Virus record (IMG/VR): IMGVR_UViG_3300034685_000074
Location: 1-30,177 of that record
DNA: 30,177 nucleotides
Strand: one strand, 5' to 3'
Source of the DNA: a virus
The notes beneath the pieces are model-generated. The model searched no databases. It was not told the DNA's origin and saw nothing but the letters and a program-made list of their open reading frames with translations. Each line of letters begins with the position of its first letter. The stretch's first letter is position 1. The position numbers and the translations under genes were made by a program. Below are positions 3,033 through 30,127 of the stretch, in pieces.

Positions 3033-3049
3033 GTCACCAAAAATATAAT
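3033..3049 (+). promoter_or_regulatory. Operator O2
   Basis: GTCACCAAAAATATAAT, between the -35 elements of the two divergent promoters. It is the member with the weakest palindromic right half. Confidence 0.5.
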
Positions 3050-3066
3050 TTTTTTAAAAGAGACTA

Positions 3067-3095
3067 TTGACAAGTTACCAAAAGTGAACTATAAT
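3067..3095 (+). promoter_or_regulatory. Early rightward promoter (PR-like)
   Basis: Perfect sigma-A consensus: TTGACA (3067-3072), 17-bp spacer, TATAAT (3090-3095). Operator O3 (3074-3090) occupies the spacer exactly. It drives the cro-like gene at 3148 and the early operon behind it. Confidence 0.88.
3074..3090 (+). promoter_or_regulatory. Operator O3
   Basis: GTTACCAAAAGTGAACT fills the PR spacer. Its first 16 bases form an imperfect palindrome (GTTAC half-site against GTGAAC). Confidence 0.65.
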
Positions 3096-3147: not shown

Positions 3148-3393
3148 ATGAAAAGAAATCCAAATTTTAAATTAAAAGCATTAAGGTTAGAGCACAATTT
3201 AAAACAAACTGATATGGCTAAACTATTAGGGATGAGCGAAACTACTTATAATCGTAAAGAAAATGGGATAACTGAATTTACTGAAAGTGAAATAGAGAAG
3301 ATTTGTGACATCTTTAATAAAAAGCCCGAAGAGATTTTTTTTAGAAACAATGTTACCAAAAGTATAACAAAAATAAAAGAGGAGGTGAGTTAA
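3148..3393 (+). CDS. Cro-like XRE-family regulator
   Basis: An 81-residue protein made almost entirely of one HTH_3 domain (KALRLEHNLKQTDMAKLLGM followed by a SETTYNRKENG recognition helix). It is the first gene of the rightward operon and faces the repressor, so it should be the Cro-equivalent that competes for the same operators and commits to lysis. The start has a strong GAGGAGGTGG ribosome site. The final ~15 codons contain operator O5 and a putative second promoter, and its stop is followed after one base by the antirepressor ATG. It has no cleavage or dimerisation domain beyond the HTH. Confidence 0.9.
   Translation: MKRNPNFKLKALRLEHNLKQTDMAKLLGMSETTYNRKENGITEFTESEIEKICDIFNKKPEEIFFRNNVTKSITKIKEEVS
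3340..3368 (+). promoter_or_regulatory. Putative antirepressor promoter inside the cro-like gene
   Basis: TTTAGA (3340-3345; 4 of 6 to the -35 consensus), 17-bp spacer, TATAAC (3363-3368; 5 of 6). Operator O5 overlaps the spacer and -10 in the same way O1 overlaps the repressor promoter. It lies 26 bp upstream of the antirepressor ATG. Confidence 0.45.
3352..3368 (+). promoter_or_regulatory. Operator O5 (intragenic)
   Basis: GTTACCAAAAGTATAAC is the best palindrome of the set (GTTA at one end, TAAC at the other). It lies in the coding end of the cro-like gene, about 230 bp from the main operator cluster. Confidence 0.6.
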
Positions 3394-3394
3394 T

Positions 3395-4165
3395 ATGAAC
3401 GAATTACAAATTTTTAAAAACGACGAGTTTGGAGAAATAAGAATTTTAATGAGAGATGGTGAACCTTGGTTTGTTGCAAGTGACATATGCAAGGTTTTGG
3501 AATTAAGTAACATAACAGAAACACTGAAAAGAGTAGATGAGGATGAGTTAAGTATTACTGAAGTCATCGATTCATTAGGCAGAAGGCAACAAGTTTATAT
3601 AGTCAATGAAGCAGGATTGTATAACTTGATTTTGTTAAGCCGAAAGTCAGAGGCTAAAAAGTTCAAAAGATGGATAACACATGAGGTTTTACCTTCTATA
3701 AGAAAGCATGGAGCATATCTAACGCCAGAGAAAATTGAAGAGGTTCTTTTAAATCCAGACACTATAATTCAGCTTGCACAACAATTAAAAGAAGAAAAGC
3801 AAAAGCGATTAGAGGCAGAAAAAACAATCCAGATTATGAAACCGAAAGCCGAGTTTTTCGATGCAGTAGCTGGCAGTAAAGATGCAATTGACATGAATAG
3901 AGCAGCAAAATTGATATACGAGGAAACAAGAATGGGCAGGAACAAACTCTTTAAACTTTTACGAGAGAAAGGTGTCCTCATGAAAGACAATATACCTTAT
4001 CAGGAATATATCGACAAAGGCTACTTCAGAACAATCGAGCAAAAATACACCAAACCAGATGGCACAACACATATCTACATCAAAACTCTTGTATATCAAA
4101 AAGGTTTAGACTTCATAAGAAAAGTCATTAAAGAGGACAATGTCATAGCTTTGAAAAGAGCATGA
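3395..4165 (+). CDS. Phage antirepressor (BRO-N + KilAC)
   Basis: A 256-residue two-domain protein. Residues ~1-110 form a BRO-N domain (EIRILMRDGEPWFVASDICKVL; later FKRWITHEVLPSIRKHGAYL). A helical linker at ~112-150 is followed by a C-terminal KilAC/phage antirepressor domain (about 150-250; DAIDMNRAAKLI, GRNKLFKLLREKGVL, KGLDFIRKVI). Proteins of this type inactivate phage repressors or rewire early transcription. It directly follows the cro-like gene with a GAGGAGGTGAG ribosome site and may also be transcribed from the operator-controlled promoter at 3340-3368. It offers an induction route separate from ImmA proteolysis. Confidence 0.93.
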   Translation: MNELQIFKNDEFGEIRILMRDGEPWFVASDICKVLELSNITETLKRVDEDELSITEVIDSLGRRQQVYIVNEAGLYNLILLSRKSEAKKFKRWITHEVLPSIRKHGAYLTPEKIEEVLLNPDTIIQLAQQLKEEKQKRLEAEKTIQIMKPKAEFFDAVAGSKDAIDMNRAAKLIYEETRMGRNKLFKLLREKGVLMKDNIPYQEYIDKGYFRTIEQKYTKPDGTTHIYIKTLVYQKGLDFIRKVIKEDNVIALKRA

Positions 4166-6150: not shown

Positions 6151-7047
6151 ATGGGTAAAACAGTAAAAAATGATGAATTAAAAAATAAATTAGCCAAAAA
6201 AGCTGAAAATACTCCAGCACCGGGGAAAACATTAAAAGCTCTGCTTCAGGACCAGAGTGTTAAAAATAGATTCAATGAGTTGTTAGGTAAAAAATCTGCA
6301 GGTTTTATATCCTCTCTGCTTAATGTTGTAAATTCTAACCCACAACTTCAAGCTGCAGATCCGCACAGTATTCTTTCTGCTGCTGCTCTTGCTGCTGCTT
6401 TGGACCTTCCTATAGATCCAAATCTCGGTTTTGCATATATAGTCCCATATAACGTGCGTCAAGGTGATGCTCATATTTTAAAAGCTCAGTTTCAACTTGG
6501 ATATAAAGGATATATTCAATTAGCAATGCGTACAGGTGCATACAAGACAATAAATGCAACAGAGGTATATGAAGGAGAAATAAAAAATTATAACCGCTTT
6601 ACAGGTGAATTTGAATTTGGTGAAAAGGAATCAGATAAGATAATAGGCTATATAGCATATTTCAAGTTGTTAAATGGCTTTGAAAAGTATCTTTACATGA
6701 CTGTTGAAGAAATAGAGAGACATGCAAAACGTTACTCTAAAAGTTATGACAGCAAAAACAGTCGTTGGAAAGAAGATTTTCACAGCATGGCACTTAAAAC
6801 AGTGATAAAAAGATTACTCTCTAAATACGGTATTCTCTCAATTGAAATGCAGACCTCACTCTTAGCGGATCAGGCAGTAGTAAAACAAGATGAAGAAGGC
6901 AATATAAACTATGAATATCCAGATAATATCACACTGGATGAAGAGTATTATATAGTGCATGATGAAGAAGAAACCCAAGAACAGCAGAGCGAAAGTGAAA
7001 ATAACGAAGAAAAAGAAACTACTGGACAGATTAGTATAGAGGCGTAG
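6151..7047 (+). CDS. recT: RecT-family single-strand annealing protein
   Basis: A 298-residue RecT protein with core about 25-235: the AALAAALDLPIDPNLGFAYI segment, FQLGYKGYIQLAMRTG, KRYSKSYDSKNSRWKEDF and MALKTVIKRLLSKYG are all hallmark RecT regions. The last ~60 residues are acidic and low complexity (DEEETQEQQSESENNEE). It anneals complementary single strands produced by the YqaJ exonuclease immediately upstream (15-bp gap, AGAAGGAGG ribosome site). The stop codon lies inside a large stem-loop (7035-7102). Confidence 0.95.
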   Translation: MGKTVKNDELKNKLAKKAENTPAPGKTLKALLQDQSVKNRFNELLGKKSAGFISSLLNVVNSNPQLQAADPHSILSAAALAAALDLPIDPNLGFAYIVPYNVRQGDAHILKAQFQLGYKGYIQLAMRTGAYKTINATEVYEGEIKNYNRFTGEFEFGEKESDKIIGYIAYFKLLNGFEKYLYMTVEEIERHAKRYSKSYDSKNSRWKEDFHSMALKTVIKRLLSKYGILSIEMQTSLLADQAVVKQDEEGNINYEYPDNITLDEEYYIVHDEEETQEQQSESENNEEKETTGQISIEA

Positions 7048-7121: not shown

Positions 7122-8045
7122 ATGCCAAATAGAATTTTAAAAGAAAGCATAACGACAAGTGATACAATAAATGAACTCACTCCAGAGGAAGAAGTTTTCT
7201 TTTATAGATTGTTAGTGGTTTGTGATGACTATGGCCGTATGGATGCAAGACCAAGCATATTAAGGGCTAAGTGCTATCCTCTTAAGCTTGATAGTGTGAG
7301 TGAAGATGATATCAAATCATGGCTTAATAAGTTAGTTAAAGTTGGCTTAATAAAGCTTTATATCGGTAGTGATAATAAACAGTATCTTCAGGTAGTTACG
7401 TGGGATAAACATCAGCAGGTGAGAGCAAAGAGAAGTAAATATCCTGAGCCTGTTGAATATATAGAGGGAAATGATAGAAGCAATAATGCAGATGATAGTA
7501 ACATGATATCATCTGATATCAAATGTAATCAAATGAATGCATATGTCCCCGAGAATCCTAATCCTAATCCGAATCCTAATCCGAATATAAATACATATGT
7601 CGCAACTGACGTTGCTCAGTGTGTGTCTGTCCCGGCTGAGAAGCCATCTGACTCTACGGAAGATGGTGGAGCGCAGTCTAAAAAGACTGGCAAAGACGGA
7701 TACACACAAGAGTTTGAGGAGTTTTGGAAGCATTATCCCCGAAAGATAGAGAAAAAGCGTGCTTTTAGAGCATGGAAAGCAAGGTTAAGAGAGGGAGTAG
7801 ACCCTGAAATTCTAATTCAGGCATGTAAAAATTATGCTGCTTATTGTACTAAACAGGGTTTAGAGCAGCGGTATATAAAACATGCTAGTACTTTCTTGGG
7901 GCCTGATAAACCGTTTGAAGAGTATGTAGATGGGCCTCCTGAAACTGTGCAAGATGGAAGCAGTCTGCTTAAAGAGCCTAAAAGTTGGGGCATTTTGAGG
8001 AATCTTTATGATAAATACAGGCAAGAGGAGGAAAAAGGGGTATGA
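7122..8045 (+). CDS. Phage replication initiator / DnaD-like replisome organiser
   Basis: A 307-residue protein with two domains joined by a variable linker. The N-terminal winged-helix region (~1-115; ELTPEEEVFFYRLLVVCDDYGRMDARP, then VTWDKHQQVRAKRSKYP) is typical of Gram-positive phage origin-binding proteins. The linker (~120-195) contains a PN repeat. The C-terminal part (EFEEFWKHYPRKIEKKRAFRAWKA, ~197-275) resembles the DnaT/DnaD-type region of replisome organisers. It should bind the phage origin and recruit the helicase loader, whose gene overlaps its stop by 4 bp. The linker DNA carries TGATATCA repeats that may mark the origin. Confidence 0.88.
   Translation: MPNRILKESITTSDTINELTPEEEVFFYRLLVVCDDYGRMDARPSILRAKCYPLKLDSVSEDDIKSWLNKLVKVGLIKLYIGSDNKQYLQVVTWDKHQQVRAKRSKYPEPVEYIEGNDRSNNADDSNMISSDIKCNQMNAYVPENPNPNPNPNPNINTYVATDVAQCVSVPAEKPSDSTEDGGAQSKKTGKDGYTQEFEEFWKHYPRKIEKKRAFRAWKARLREGVDPEILIQACKNYAAYCTKQGLEQRYIKHASTFLGPDKPFEEYVDGPPETVQDGSSLLKEPKSWGILRNLYDKYRQEEEKGV
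7504..7521. other. Candidate phage origin repeats inside the initiator gene
   Basis: Two TGATATCA palindromes (7504-7511, 7514-7521) start exactly 10 bp apart, one helical turn. A third copy lies at 7307-7314, and the first and third share TGATATCAAAT. Many Gram-positive phages and lambda keep their origin in the linker of the initiator gene, which is where these lie. Origin function is inferred. Confidence 0.4.
7554..7586 (+). repeat. Hexanucleotide repeat encoding a Pro-Asn linker
   Basis: Five tandem AATCCT/AATCCG units plus a final AAT encode alternating Asn-Pro. It is low complexity, in frame, and best explained as a flexible interdomain linker; copy number probably varies between related phages. 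Confidence 0.8.
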
Positions 8046-8744: not shown

Positions 8745-9088
8745 GATACAAAATTGTGATACCTGGAAGGCCGGTCCCTAAAGGGAGGCCACGTTTTTCA
8801 AAAGGACATGCTTATACACCAGAAAAGACAAGAATGTATGAGGAACTAGTAGGTTGGAAAGCAAAGCAAGTAATAAAAAGCCCTCTTAGAAAGAATATTG
8901 CGGTCTATATAACTATCTACGCAAGTAGCAAGATACAGGGTGATCTGGATAATTACGCAAAGTCTATTCTTGATGGAATGAATGGCGTAGCTTACATAGA
9001 TGATAAGCAAATATGCAGTTTATCTATACAGAGAATTTCTGACAAGGAGGAGCGTGTGGAAATTGAAATAGAGGAGATGTTAGTATGA
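8741..9088 (+). CDS. rusA: RusA-family Holliday junction resolvase
   Basis: A 115-residue RusA-type endonuclease. It opens with IVIPGRPVPKGRPRFS and carries the catalytic acidic cluster GDLDNYAKSILDGMNGVAYIDDKQI (~67-91) with its conserved Asp residues and Lys. Length is normal for the family. It resolves branched intermediates from YqaJ/RecT recombination or replication before packaging. ATGA overlaps on both sides place it firmly in the early operon. Confidence 0.95.
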   Translation: MRYKIVIPGRPVPKGRPRFSKGHAYTPEKTRMYEELVGWKAKQVIKSPLRKNIAVYITIYASSKIQGDLDNYAKSILDGMNGVAYIDDKQICSLSIQRISDKEERVEIEIEEMLV

Positions 9089-9423
9089 CTGAGAAAATAA
9101 AACCTCTTGGTGAACCTATAGAAGCACTTGCGATAGGGCTAAAACTGATGAAATTGGCTATGAATAAGTATAATATAAGTGCAGAAGAAGCTGTAAGCGA
9201 AACATTAAGACGTATAAATATTATGCAAAGAGAAGGCATGATTTTTGATAAAAATTTTAGGGGATGGTATCATAAACAAAAGATTTCAGGAATGTGTGTA
9301 ACATGTGGGAAAAGACCCGCAGAACCCGGATATACAAGATGTAAAATTTGTAGGGTTAAAGCTAAAGAATCACAAGATAAGTTTTGGAAGAGAGGTAAGT
9401 ATAAAAAGGAGGTATCGCTATGA
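9085..9423 (+). CDS. Hypothetical protein with C-terminal zinc-knuckle-like motif
   Basis: A 112-residue protein. The N-terminal half is helical with no recognisable motif. The C-terminal part has CVTCGKRPAEPGYTRCKIC (~71-89), a CxxC-N14-CxxC arrangement suited to one zinc ion, followed by a very basic tail (KESQDKFWKRGKYKKE). Nucleic-acid binding is likely by composition but unproven. It overlaps both neighbours by 4 bp. Confidence 0.75.
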   Translation: MTEKIKPLGEPIEALAIGLKLMKLAMNKYNISAEEAVSETLRRINIMQREGMIFDKNFRGWYHKQKISGMCVTCGKRPAEPGYTRCKICRVKAKESQDKFWKRGKYKKEVSL

Positions 9424-9623
9424 GTGAAGATGTTCTGAAATACTGCTACAGGTCGATAGTGCGATACCTGAACGGAGATATGGCACTTTTCCTTCAATAC
9501 ATGGACAAGGCAATGGAGCTATACGAAGAAGAGAAGAAGAAAGGGAGACTGTACATAACAATAGAGGAGCTCTTGGATTTAGCTACGAAAGAAAAATTAA
9601 GCCTGATTATGAAAGGTGGCTGA
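9420..9623 (+). CDS. Small hypothetical early protein
   Basis: A 67-residue acidic helical protein (MSEDVLKYCYRSIVRYLNGD start). No family is recognised. Its ATG overlaps the upstream stop and it is followed 6 bp later by the late regulator gene. Confidence 0.68.
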   Translation: MSEDVLKYCYRSIVRYLNGDMALFLQYMDKAMELYEEEKKKGRLYITIEELLDLATKEKLSLIMKGG

Positions 9624-9629
9624 AAAAAT

Positions 9630-10037
9630 ATGACAAAATACGATTTAATGCAATATAGGTGGATTCTTAAAAACATAGAAAAGCTAGAAGAGAAATTGTT
9701 AGAGATAGATGCGCAGTTACAAAGAATTACAACACGGTATACGCTAGTGGCGGTATCCAGAACGGGTAATAGAGATGTGATGGGGGATTTGATTATAAAG
9801 AAAATGGAAGTAGAGGAAGAAATAAATAAAAAATTGCAAGAAAGTTATAAAAAGCTAAACGAGATAGAAAAGGCAATAAAAAAACTGGATGAAAGAGAAA
9901 AACTGCTGATAAGGTTGAGGTATATATATGGCAAGAGCTGGGCAGAAATATGCGATGAGATGAACTACAGTTGGGCGCAAATACATAGAATACACAAAGA
10001 AGCATTAGAAAAATTAAAAAAAGATGAGACTAAATGA
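9630..10037 (+). CDS. ArpU/sigma-70-like late transcription regulator
   Basis: A 135-residue protein with a long N-terminal coiled coil (~5-90) and a C-terminal sigma-region-4-like HTH (DEREKLLIRLRYIYGKSWAE then ICDEMNYSWAQIHRIHKEAL, ~90-128). This arrangement is seen in ArpU/RinA-type late activators and related phage sigma-like proteins. It is the last gene of the early operon, immediately before a promoter/terminator pair and the packaging genes, exactly where a late switch is expected. It probably activates late transcription; whether it acts at a promoter or by read-through is not visible. Confidence 0.85.
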   Translation: MTKYDLMQYRWILKNIEKLEEKLLEIDAQLQRITTRYTLVAVSRTGNRDVMGDLIIKKMEVEEEINKKLQESYKKLNEIEKAIKKLDEREKLLIRLRYIYGKSWAEICDEMNYSWAQIHRIHKEALEKLKKDETK

Positions 10038-10049
10038 TACACTTTTGTA

Positions 10050-10058
10050 TGATATAAT
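10050..10058 (+). promoter_or_regulatory. Candidate late promoter with extended -10
   Basis: TGATATAAT is a perfect extended -10 with no good -35, the form often used by activator-dependent phage late promoters. It lies 13 bp after the late regulator stop and only ~30 bp before a strong terminator. Confidence 0.5.
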
Positions 10059-10089
10059 GTAAGTGGAATTATATAAATTTTATTTGTTT

Positions 10090-10114
10090 AGCCCGGTCAC
10101 CCCGCCGGGCTTTT
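10090..10114 (+). terminator. Rho-independent terminator after the early operon
   Basis: AGCCCGG (10090-10096) pairs with CCGGGCT (10105-10111) across an 8-nt loop, followed by T residues. It would end early transcription and any short transcript from the promoter at 10050-10058. Confidence 0.85.
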
Positions 10115-10121
10115 GTTATGC

Positions 10122-10150
10122 TTGTAAGAAAATTTATGTTGGTGTAGAAT
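10122..10150 (+). promoter_or_regulatory. Promoter of the 10188-10484 gene
   Basis: TTGTAA (10122-10127), 17-bp spacer, TAGAAT (10145-10150). It starts just after the terminator, giving the downstream small gene its own transcription unit. Confidence 0.5.
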
Positions 10151-10187
10151 ATATTTATAAAAATATTTTTGAAATGGGGGTATAATT

Positions 10188-10484
10188 ATGGCACTATTTG
10201 GCGGTAAAGACAATAAAGAAGAAAAACGACAAGAAGAAATGCAAAAATTTATGGAGAAATACCAATTAGAAGATTTAGATGAAAAAGACTTAGTGGTGTT
10301 ACGAAGGATATCGCAAGATTTAGCAGGGAATAAATGGTTCAAAGCAGGTATGGCACTAAGTTTTGCAAAAGCAGAAGAACAAGCAAAAGTAACGTATTTG
10401 TCCGCATTGGTAGAGCAAAATTGGATGATAATAAGACAATTAAGCAGATTAAACAGAAATATAGAAAAGCTATTAGAAAAATAA
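10188..10484 (+). CDS. Hypothetical protein with own promoter (possible moron)
   Basis: A 98-residue charged helical protein: MALFGGKDNKEEKRQEEMQK at the N-terminus, then KYQLEDLDEKDLVVLRRI, a more hydrophobic KWFKAGMALSFAKAEEQ middle, and LVEQNWMIIRQLSRLNRN. I have the impression of similar proteins in Firmicutes chromosomes outside phages but cannot confirm it. Function unknown. It is bracketed by a terminator upstream and its own promoter, with a GGGGG ribosome site, so it can be expressed apart from the early and late operons. Confidence 0.75.
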   Translation: MALFGGKDNKEEKRQEEMQKFMEKYQLEDLDEKDLVVLRRISQDLAGNKWFKAGMALSFAKAEEQAKVTYLSALVEQNWMIIRQLSRLNRNIEKLLEK

Positions 10485-10501
10485 GACATGTAGGTGATAG
10501 C

Positions 10502-10804
10502 GTGAAGCCATGGGCAGAGCGTTTTTATAAATCAAAAGCTTGGCAGGAAGTTCGCCAGGCTTATTTTATTTATCAGCATGGAATATGTGAGAGGTGTGGG
10601 AAACCGGGAGAAATAGTTCACCATAAGATATATTTAACGCCAGAAAATATAAACGACCCGAATATAACACTTAGCTTTGATAATCTTGAACTGTTATGTC
10701 AGGATTGCCATAACAAAGAGCATAGTACAAAAATGCCTGTTGCAGAAGGCTTAGCGTTTGATGATGAAGGGAACTTAATTCAATCCCCCCCACCTTCTAA
10801 ATAG
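10502..10804 (+). CDS. HNH endonuclease (packaging-associated)
   Basis: A 100-residue HNH nuclease: CERCGKPGEIVHHKIYLTP carries the first zinc pair and the catalytic His, DNLELLCQDCHNKEH the conserved Asn, second zinc pair and last His. The GTG start at 10502 has AGGTGAT just upstream; the open frame further left only overlaps the preceding gene. In HK97-like phages an HNH protein encoded beside the terminase stimulates cos cleavage by the large subunit. The position directly before the candidate cos region and terminase supports that role over a homing endonuclease. Confidence 0.92.
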   Translation: MKPWAERFYKSKAWQEVRQAYFIYQHGICERCGKPGEIVHHKIYLTPENINDPNITLSFDNLELLCQDCHNKEHSTKMPVAEGLAFDDEGNLIQSPPPSK

Positions 10805-10952
10805 AGGAGGGGCTTGGAGACCGGCGGCGCGGCCCTTCGAAAACCTCGGAATGGGCTTTTACACGAGGGGGGCTGACCAGCAGCGGCCAAAATCGGCCAA
10901 AACGTCGCAAAACTGGCCAAAGTTGCGCAAAAATTTTTTAAAGGTGGTAAAA
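10805..10952 (+). other. GC-rich non-coding candidate cos/packaging region
   Basis: A 148-bp gap between the HNH and small terminase genes. Its left part (about 10806-10880) is far richer in G and C than the flanking genes (for example CCGGCGGCGCGGCCC at 10821-10835), includes a TTCGAA palindrome, and ends in a G-rich stretch. The right part holds five phased 10-bp repeats (10881-10930) and then an A/T tract. A reading frame runs through it from 10851 but lacks a ribosome site. The location between HNH and terminase is the usual cos position in HK97-like phages of Gram-positive bacteria. Confidence 0.55.
10881..10930 (+). repeat. Five 10-bp phased repeats (candidate terminase binding sites)
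   Basis: Five consecutive decamers all end in CAA or CCAA (CAGCGGCCAA, AATCGGCCAA, AACGTCGCAA, AACTGGCCAA, AGTTGCGCAA). The exact 10-bp period matches one DNA turn and is not a multiple of three, so it cannot come from a protein repeat. Helically phased short A-runs would also favour bent DNA. Confidence 0.65.
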
Positions 10953-11309
10953 ATGCTTAAAGAAGAAAAGGAAAAATTATACAAGAAAGAATTACAGAAA
11001 CTGAATAGATACTTCAAGAATATTCCAAAGGCAGACCAACAATTGATAGAAGGGCTCAAACAACAAGCTGCGTTTTTATATGCGACATTGCAGGAACTAC
11101 AGGAGCGCATAAACGAGGAAGGACCTGTCGAATTGTTTGTGCAGGGCAAACAGCGTTTATTACGTGAACATCCAGCGTCAAAGATTTATAACGAGATGGT
11201 TAAGAGCTATGCTGCTATTATTAAACAGTTGCTTAGTATGTTGCCAAAAGAGGAGGCAAAGCCAGTAGAAGATGAGTTGATGGCTTTTGTTAAAAGGGCG
11301 GGAAGATAA
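10953..11309 (+). CDS. terS: Terminase small subunit (P27-like)
   Basis: A 118-residue helical protein (LYKKELQKLNRYFKNIPKAD, QQAAFLYATLQELQERINEE, ending in VEDELMAFVKRAGR) typical of the P27-family small terminase. The ATG at 10953 is chosen because of AAAGGTGG six bases before it; an upstream in-frame ATG at 10851 has no ribosome site and would translate the phased repeats. It recognises the packaging site, probably the repeats just upstream, and hands DNA to the large subunit. Its TAA overlaps the next ATG (TAATG). Confidence 0.88.
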   Translation: MLKEEKEKLYKKELQKLNRYFKNIPKADQQLIEGLKQQAAFLYATLQELQERINEEGPVELFVQGKQRLLREHPASKIYNEMVKSYAAIIKQLLSMLPKEEAKPVEDELMAFVKRAGR

Positions 11310-12973
11310 TGCAGAACTATATACTGGAATACTGGGAGAAGATAGAAAGAGGCGAGATAGCGGCATGTAAAAGATTAAAACAACAATACAAAAAACTTGT
11401 CGATGAAATAGAGAACCCACGTGAACCGTGGGTTTTTGATTTAGAGAAGGCCAATCAGCCCATCGAGTTCATAGAGAAATTCTGTAAGCACTCCAAGGGC
11501 AAGTGGGCAGGCAAGCCGGTCAAGCTGGAGCTCTTTCAGAAGGCGCTTATTCAAGCCGTGTATGGCTTTGTGCATAAAGAAACAGGATTGAGGCGGTGCA
11601 GGGAAGTATTTATCTTGTTGGGGCGGAAGAATGGTAAATCAACGCTCATGAGTGCTTTGGGGTTATACATGCTCGTAGGTGATGGTGAAGGTGGGGCAGA
11701 ATGTTATTCGGTAGCCACAAAAAAAGATCAGGCAAGGATCGTGTTCGCTGAAGCTTGCAACATGGTAAGCCAAAGCCCGGCACTCAGAAAACATTTAAAG
11801 AAGCGCAAGACGGATTTATACTTTCCTGTTACATTTGGCAAGTATGAGCCGTTGGCATCGGAAAGTAACAGCTTGGATGGGCTTAACTCTCACTGTGTAA
11901 TCATGGATGAGCTACACGCTATTAAGGACCGGAACTTATACGATGTCATGAAGCAGTCGATGGCGGCAAGAGAACAGCCCATTCTGTTTATGATTACAAC
12001 TGCTGGCTTTGTTCGTGAATGTATTTTTGATGATATATACAACTATGCCTGTAAGGCCCTTGATGGCGTGATAGATGATGAAAGGTTTTTGGCGTTTATT
12101 TATGAGCTTGATGATAGAAGCGAGTGGACGGATTTTCGGGCATGGGAGAAGGCCAACCCAGGGCTTGGGACGATTAAGAATTACGAGGAACTGGCAGCAA
12201 ATGTAGAGCGTGCCAAAAACGATCCTAATTTCTTGCCAACAGTCCTTACCAAAGATTTTAATGTTCGCGAAACTCTATCCAGTGCATGGTTAACCTTTGC
12301 TGAGGCGAACAATGAAGAAACGTTCGATATGGAAGAGATTCGAGGATGCTATGCTGTAGGTGGTGTGGACTTGAGTGCTACCACCGACTTGACGGCTGCA
12401 GCACTTCTGGTGATGAAGCCTGGGAGCGAAAAGATATATGCTATTGTGCAAAGTTTTATGCCGGCTGACGCTGTAGAGGAGCGCACTAAAGAAGATAAGG
12501 TGCCATACGATATTTGGGTTCAGCGCGGATTAATAACACCCAGCCGTGGCAACAGGGTTGACTACAGAGATGTGACTGATTGGTTCTTGATGATGAAGGA
12601 TAAATACGACATCTATCCTTATTGGGTTGGCTATGATAGCTGGAACTCACCCGCATGGGTTGAAGATATGGAAATGCGGGCAGGCTTTGAGCGTAACAAA
12701 ACGCTAATACCAGTGATTATGGGAGCGAAGACATTGAGCGCTCCCATGAAACTTTTGAAGGCCGATCTGGGGAGTAAGCGAATAAACTATAACAACAATC
12801 CTGTATTGAAGTGGGCCTTGACAAATCTGGAAGTAGAAGTAGATAAGAACGAGAATATTAGACCGGTGAAGGGTAGAAATAAACGGCGTCGTATTGACCC
12901 GGCGGTAGCCCTCATCATTGCTTACACTGTTCTGTTGCAGGTTTATGAAGACTACCGTAACTTGAATTGTTGA
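11309..12973 (+). CDS. terL: Terminase large subunit (HK97-like)
   Basis: A 554-residue packaging motor of the Terminase_1 family. The ATPase domain has Walker A GRKNGKST (~105-112) and Walker B CVIMDELHA (Asp/Glu ~200-201), with the coupling motif MITTAGF (~228-234). The RNase-H-like nuclease domain has GVDLSATTDLTA (~352-363) and a late acidic RRIDPAVALIIAY (~530-542). Length is normal. It pumps DNA into the prohead and cuts the concatemer with help from TerS and the HNH protein. Confidence 0.97.
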   Translation: MQNYILEYWEKIERGEIAACKRLKQQYKKLVDEIENPREPWVFDLEKANQPIEFIEKFCKHSKGKWAGKPVKLELFQKALIQAVYGFVHKETGLRRCREVFILLGRKNGKSTLMSALGLYMLVGDGEGGAECYSVATKKDQARIVFAEACNMVSQSPALRKHLKKRKTDLYFPVTFGKYEPLASESNSLDGLNSHCVIMDELHAIKDRNLYDVMKQSMAAREQPILFMITTAGFVRECIFDDIYNYACKALDGVIDDERFLAFIYELDDRSEWTDFRAWEKANPGLGTIKNYEELAANVERAKNDPNFLPTVLTKDFNVRETLSSAWLTFAEANNEETFDMEEIRGCYAVGGVDLSATTDLTAAALLVMKPGSEKIYAIVQSFMPADAVEERTKEDKVPYDIWVQRGLITPSRGNRVDYRDVTDWFLMMKDKYDIYPYWVGYDSWNSPAWVEDMEMRAGFERNKTLIPVIMGAKTLSAPMKLLKADLGSKRINYNNNPVLKWALTNLEVEVDKNENIRPVKGRNKRRRIDPAVALIIAYTVLLQVYEDYRNLNC

Positions 12974-12986
12974 GGAGGCAGGCTCC

Positions 12987-14165
12987 ATGAGTTTATTAGG
13001 CACTATAGCGAATTTATTCAAAAAGAAACAGTACACATATATGCAGCCCGTGGATGATTATGAGCCGATTTTTATCCAATGGGGTGGAATACCATACGAA
13101 AATGACGTGGTGCGTGCTGCAGTGGATACTATAGCCAGGAACGCTGCAAAGCTGAATCCCAAACATGTGCGTGTGTCAGATGCCGGGATTTTTTGGATGA
13201 GAAGCAATTTGGAAAGGCTTCTTGCTTTGGAGCCCAACCCGTACATGTCGGCTTTTGATTTTTACTATCGTCTTGTAACTATGCGGGAACTGGATAACAA
13301 TGCTTTTGCGTTGATTGTTTGGGGTGATTCAGGGGAAGTCCAGCAGCTTTTGCCAATCAACTGTTCGCAGGCAGAAATTCTTGAAGACAGGACAGGTACT
13401 CTTTATGTACGTGTGTGGTTGCTTGGAGAAAAATTTGAGTTTCCTTATAGCGAAGTCATTCATCTGCGCAAACATTATTACAAAAGTGAAGTGTGGGGAG
13501 AGAGTAATGATCCTATCAACACCGGCCTAAACATTCTTACAACTGTGGAACAGGGACTTGCAGAAGGGGTAAAAACCTCCACGTATTTACGTGGGATTAT
13601 AAAATATCAAGGGGTCCTAAAAGATGAGGACATAAAGAAAAATCGAGATAAATTTGTAGCCGAATATATGGATATTCAGAAGTCTGGTGGTGTGGCAGCT
13701 CTTGACGCCAAAGCGGAATATATTCCAGTCGAAAGTAAACCACAACTGGTTGATGCCGAGCAATTAAAAGTACTTAAAGACAAGGTTTATCACTACTTTG
13801 GCGTTAATGATGCAATTGTAACTGGAAATTACAACGAAGACCAGTGGACTGCTTTTTATGAAAGCATCTTGGAGCCTATTGCAGTGCAAATGAGCTTGGA
13901 GTTTACCAGAAAAATTTTTACGCCAAAAGAAATCGGCCACGGTAACCGGATTATTTTTGAGAGCAATCGCTTGCAGTATGCAAGCGTACGGACAAAAACT
14001 CAACTTATAAAAGAGCTTATGCAATTTGGGATTTTGACGATTAATGAAGCCAGAGAAATTCTTAACCTAGCGCCTATTCCCAATGGTGATAGGCGGTTAG
14101 TGAGCTTGAATTATGTTAATGCTGACAAACAGGACCTTTATCAGGTAGGAAAGGAGGAAGAATAA
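12987..14165 (+). CDS. Portal protein (HK97 family)
   Basis: A 392-residue portal protein. Typical segments: FIQWGGIPYENDVVRAAVDT near the N-terminus, LLALEPNPYMSAFDFYYRLV, LDNNAFALIVWGDSGEVQQL, YHYFGVNDAIVTGNYNEDQW and the C-terminal LTINEAREILNLAPI. It forms the dodecameric ring at the head vertex through which DNA enters. It follows the large terminase after 13 bp with GAGGAGG and precedes the protease gene by one base. Confidence 0.96.
   Translation: MSLLGTIANLFKKKQYTYMQPVDDYEPIFIQWGGIPYENDVVRAAVDTIARNAAKLNPKHVRVSDAGIFWMRSNLERLLALEPNPYMSAFDFYYRLVTMRELDNNAFALIVWGDSGEVQQLLPINCSQAEILEDRTGTLYVRVWLLGEKFEFPYSEVIHLRKHYYKSEVWGESNDPINTGLNILTTVEQGLAEGVKTSTYLRGIIKYQGVLKDEDIKKNRDKFVAEYMDIQKSGGVAALDAKAEYIPVESKPQLVDAEQLKVLKDKVYHYFGVNDAIVTGNYNEDQWTAFYESILEPIAVQMSLEFTRKIFTPKEIGHGNRIIFESNRLQYASVRTKTQLIKELMQFGILTINEAREILNLAPIPNGDRRLVSLNYVNADKQDLYQVGKEEE

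Positions 14166-30051: not shown

Positions 30052-30127
<76 letters not shown>

Follow-up and report, generated by a model that had tools for sequence, protein, structure and literature searches.

A phased A-tract array of predicted curved DNA next to the probable cos of a temperate phage of the HK97 type

One intergenic region of the prophage record IMGVR_UViG_3300034685_000074 (30,177 bases, all of which were analyzed and are referred to here as the window) combines a GC-rich block with a short array of 10-bp repeats. The explanation that we favor, with moderate confidence, is that the block (10785-10872) is the cos of a temperate HK97-type phage and the array (10880-10939) a stretch of lineage-specific curved DNA, the static bend of which would aid packaging. 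The 3′ part of a tRNA-Trp gene is repeated directly at both ends of the prophage (77-126 and 30052-30127). These repeats are likely attL and attR, and the whole prophage is thus apparently contained within the record. The order of the packaging genes (HNH, cos, small terminase terS and large terminase terL) matches that of the Firmicute HK97-type, HNH-associated cos packaging module (Table 1). A preliminary description of this DNA had placed the block between HNH and terminase genes, and such are its flanks, with a PF01844 HNH on one side and a putatively P27/Terminase_4-like terS followed by TerL on the other.

Table 1. Features of the packaging region (window coordinates)
Feature	Position	Strand	Basis
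HNH endonuclease gene, packaging module	10503..10804	+	PF01844 E=5e-10 on 10490-10801; PHROG HNH families; start codon uncertain
C-run upstream of cosN	10785..10791	+	5-8 C kept here in nearly all relatives read
Putative cosN, GACCGGCGGCGCGG	10819..10832	+	By-eye alignment with phiSLT annotated cos; 27-sequence alignment
Putative 10-nt cohesive overhang, CCGGCGGCGC	10821-10830	+	Alignment with phiSLT cos
Conserved cos core, CCTTCGAAAACCTCGGAA	10834..10851	+	27-sequence alignment
Motif CACGAGGGGGG closing the cos core	10862..10872	+	Conserved across relatives, 27-sequence alignment
Phased A-tract array, predicted curved DNA	10880..10939	+	Five decamers (10881-10930) plus A5T6 and A3
terS ribosome-binding site, AAAGGTGG	10940..10947	+	Sequence; 5 nt ahead of ATG 10953
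Small terminase gene (terS), 118 aa	10953..11309	+	phrog_1066; weak Pfam Terminase_4/P27
Large terminase gene (terL)	11309..12973	+	TerL ATPase PF03354 and nuclease PF20441

The GC content reaches 0.59 to 0.64 at 10775-10899 (75-bp windows) against about 0.25 to 0.47 in the flanks, a compositional contrast as sharp as had been described, and is ca. 63% at 10800-10899, with ca. 25-45% on either side. Between HNH and terS, the relatives have in common CCCCCC...GACCG...CCTYCRAAAACCYCGGAA...CACGAGGGGGG. The C-run, GACCG, the AAAACC-CGGAA core and ACGA-GGGGG were found in about thirty relatives read, the distant ones keeping only part of them, and these motifs are common to relatives from several Firmicute hosts. 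The annotated 10-nt cos of Staphylococcus phage phiSLT (CCGGAGAGGC) aligns, by eye, with the ACCGG of the window and, since it falls on the same ACCGG, we placed the putative overhang there. The HK97 record terminates at GACCGCCGCCAAA. The exact cut is tentative because the records of iA2 and PLE2 end in the same block but about 20 bp further downstream. Based on the phiSLT alignment and on the HNH-cos-terS-terL architecture shared by many phages, we identify the GC-rich block as the cos region, as the preliminary description had proposed. A DNA similarity search of phages with 10700-11000 gave a single match, at chance level. The TerS site of HK97 is located at +15 to +29 bp from the cut (PMC11331095), and the same offset applied to the window gives a candidate TerS recognition site at 10845-10859, overlapping the conserved core.

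The PF05119 profile matched all 13 TerS homologues (best E value, 4.6e-5); the TerS of the window scored 20.9 bits, under the cut-off of 24.7. Its structural model (pLDDT 85.5) matched P27-annotated TerS at E values of 0.03-0.25 and no PDB structure at E≤0.001, and the sequence search of the PDB returned weak, chance-looking matches only, with no terminases among them. The small terminase of HK97, in which the DNA is threaded through the channel (PMC11331095), had no fold match to the model. This weak profile and fold evidence hints that the protein may be P27/Terminase_4-like.

The five decamers of the array (CAGCGGCCAA AATCGGCCAA AACGTCGCAA AACTGGCCAA AGTTGCGCAA) all end in CAA, in a 10-bp register. 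Identity at lag 10 is 34/60, compared with a mean of 15.0 (standard deviation, 3.7) in dinucleotide shuffles, and none of 5,000 shuffles equaled the array at this lag or attained its fraction of matches at any of the lags 5-20. Independently, TRF reported a period of 10 at 10884-10921, so that the exact 10-bp period of the preliminary description was confirmed by both approaches. The centers of the A/T tracts are 9.5-10 bp apart over the first four tracts. Another tandem repeat, with a period of 12 bp (AATCCGAATCCT), is located at 7554-7586 within the ORF 7122-8045 and encodes an NPNPNP stretch.

To predict curvature we used dinucleotide wedge parameters that are reportedly those of Bolshoy et al. 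1991, with the sign convention set by controls, requiring curvature in A4T4CG and none in T4A4CG. With this model, 10880-10939 exceeds every other 60-mer of the window in curvature, with 96° (mean, 26°; standard deviation, 14°), in line with the bending that had been suggested for it, and it still ranks first when AA/TT steps alone are counted. The three homologous arrays have predicted bends of 74°, 95° and 114°, each the largest of its locus, and in array-less relatives the predicted bend downstream of the G-run is at most 66°. For the I2 element of phage lambda the same model gives 33.7°, and the measured bend is 28° (PMC4856287). Changing the length of the unit in silico to 12-19 bp removed most of the bend of the array, which was restored at 20 bp. 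However, in simulations of neutral substitution from the window to its relative L083, a bend equal to or larger than that of L083 appeared in 11-20% of the trials (P=0.20 and 0.11), and thus preservation of the bend over this distance is unsupported.

The array is an insert present only in the clade of the window, in four distinct versions (window, L083, L021 and L095); the arrays of L015-L019 are identical to that of the window and were not counted as independent versions. The terS ATG lies 80 bp past the end of the G-run in both the window and L083; the same distance measures 90 bp in L021 and 99 bp in L095, versus 18-30 bp, as read from the sequences, in the array-less relatives. One of the latter, L024, has a TerS 71% identical to that of the window. 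Sequence and copy number vary among the versions, but the phase of ca. 10 bp between A/T tracts is kept both internally and with respect to the cos core, with tract centers in all four at distances of ca. 50, 60, 70 and 80 bp from the core A-tract. Some units of L021 and L095 have T4 in place of A4 without loss of phase. The lag-10 signal of L095 is weaker (P=0.016, or 0.15 if any lag is allowed). Identity between the window and L083 is 55/70 in the array, 65/68 in the cos core and 316/354 in terS. By these comparisons, the array is an addition to cos, outside its conserved part, and it is inessential to this type of cos because most relatives lack it. The proposal of a terminase recognition site made up of the decamers is not supported, given that they are missing from most relatives that retain the cos core and that they diverge faster than the core, with the phase kept and the bases changed.

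We scanned IMG/VR for three phased SSCAAAA units and found 70 stretches at 10-bp spacing versus 16 for a 14-bp control (a 15-bp control was set aside, as 15 is divisible by 3). Among the matches were 936-type (Skunavirus) lactococcal phages, of which we gathered eleven genomes, nine records chosen for reading plus two of the pattern matches (L234 and L236). They have an array of 10-bp A-tract units, variable in copy number, ca. 30-110 bp downstream of cos and ahead of terS, with lag-10 identities of 0.36-0.60. Ahead of terS, the maximum bend predicted over 60 bp ranges from 44° to 98° in this set, although in bIL170 it falls outside the array. The cohesive ends of 936 phages, CACAAAGGACT, come from sequencing across ligated ends (PMC4759559), and AATCT direct repeats and putative terminase-binding sites R1-R3 have been described in the vicinity of their cos (PMC6105707). 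The arrays of these phages were seen within positions 1-190 of L234, L236 and L379-L387, and the terS starts of these records cluster at values ten apart, as copied by hand and with values shifted in some records that begin past the 11-nt overhang.

Like the window, 936 phages have a 10-bp A-tract array directly downstream of cos, which in their case is mapped, and upstream of terS-terL. The arrangement thus has a precedent, contrary to the preliminary description, which had treated a one-turn array as unknown at packaging sites. There are also clear differences. The TerS of 936 phages belongs to an unrelated family (phrog_1437/PF07141, versus phrog_1066 in the window), their HNH gene is located downstream of terL, their cohesive-end sequence is another, and their array, 30-110 bp from the end, is ca. 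150 bp away from terS, whereas that of the window abuts the terS ribosome-binding site. We therefore discarded that the window carries a 936-type cos region, on account of its TerS family and cos sequence, and, as the TerS families differ, the likeness between the arrays was taken as convergence rather than homology. Phage lambda also has intrinsic bends (I1 and I2) beside cosN, and an I2 replacement mutant without a static bend has a severe packaging defect (PMC4856287). Unlike the array of the window, these bends are modest (28-34°), enhanced by IHF at I1, and lack a regular one-turn array. The pacL site of SPP1 is bent DNA where TerS appears to read DNA structure (PMC4856287), similar in its intrinsic bend to the one predicted in the window, but SPP1 is a pac headful phage and the window has cos. 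HK97 and phiSLT share with the window the HNH-cos-terS-terL gene order and an ACCG-type cos beside terS, although neither has a decamer array. The array is, in sum, a variant of the bent or repeated DNA known beside the packaging sites of lambda and dairy phages and not a new system.

Outside these groups, phased A-tract arrays were observed upstream of small terminases of three other families, phrog_83 (L218, reverse strand, ca. 6230-6320), phrog_3064 (L196, reverse strand, ca. 13500-13560) and phrog_1482 (L178, ca. 3040-3080, and also L205). Arrays were upstream of TerL in 5 of 21 collapsed records versus 1.3 expected (P=0.006), in a post hoc test with TerL located by two profiles, related records grouped by judgement, and one of the five arrays (L208) inside an ORF. 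The enrichment had P values of about 0.002-0.013 for distances of 1.2-1.5 kb, also in a test devised after the cases had been seen. The phrase “phased A-tracts” together with phage and terminase was not found among the papers listed by the literature search.

The decamers could instead be repeated, sequence-specific TerS sites, i.e., R-like elements of a cosB set at one-turn intervals, in which curvature is incidental. The recurrence of a common SSCAAAA unit in the array would fit, as would the three TerS sites of lambda cosB (PMC4856287) and the putative R1-R3 sites near the 936 cos (PMC6105707). We consider this unlikely, if worth keeping in mind, given that the array is more divergent than the cos core (55/70 versus 65/68), that the units with T4 for A4 retain the phase while losing the bases, and that L024, with such a similar TerS, does without it. 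A role in setting terS expression, as curved or A-rich leader DNA unrelated to packaging, seems improbable. The array does stop just ahead of the terS ribosome-binding site and could fall in the 5′ leader, but a promoter cannot fit between it and the ATG, promoter-like matches are absent from the + strand of 10735-11400, RNA structure is ordinary (z=-0.19 versus shuffles) and the 936 array adjoins cos, about 150 bp from terS. A structured RNA leader was likewise discarded, with folding no better than that of shuffles and no Rfam matches in 9000-13000.

Tandem duplication of a short unit could also have occurred neutrally, in a spacer free of constraint, which would account for the variable copy number within the clade and among 936 phages. 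This is nevertheless very improbable as the origin of units that have diverged and still retain their phase to the cos core, with A/T swaps that occur in phase, and of arrays that, in unrelated phages, precede terminase genes more often than random placement gives (post hoc). Finally, the array region could be coding, as an N-terminal extension of TerS from the ATG at 10851, the frame of which is open in the window. This we regard as almost certainly wrong, since the frame is interrupted by a stop codon in L083 and does not match that of terS in L021 and L095, and terS starts just past the G-run in the array-less relatives. The earlier statement that the 10-bp period is not due to coding is therefore upheld, and translation from 10851 is unsupported.

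Under the favored explanation, cos with an adjacent static bend, a staggered cut would be made at 10821-10830, and the A/T tracts of the array, one helical turn apart, are predicted to make the DNA intrinsically curved. The bend would lie on the downstream side of the cut, in the end presumed to enter the capsid first, and may help TerS-TerL, the supposed partner, to assemble on the cos end or to hold it, as with I1/I2 in lambda and pacL in SPP1. More speculatively, phased A-tract arrays might be a recurrent cos-side element, gained independently in unrelated phage families and tuned by the addition of whole turns, the shape of which the terminase reads and which could replace IHF bending in hosts devoid of IHF; this is possible, but we hold it as doubtful. 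In any case, nature offers here an experiment on the part of DNA shape in packaging, as close relatives have the same cos core and only some of them a strong predicted bend, and the carriers of the array differ by about whole helical turns. If the interpretation is true, selection beside cos acts on curvature rather than sequence, and the direct repeats of 936-type phages may be the same device.

Some of the records had peculiarities of their own around terL. The metagenome record L224 contains two inverted copies of a 936-like terL region and is possibly a chimeric assembly. In L027 (around 3300-4001) and L096, a segment resembling an inserted intein or homing endonuclease immediately precedes the portion of terL that was matched, the match beginning at residue 111.
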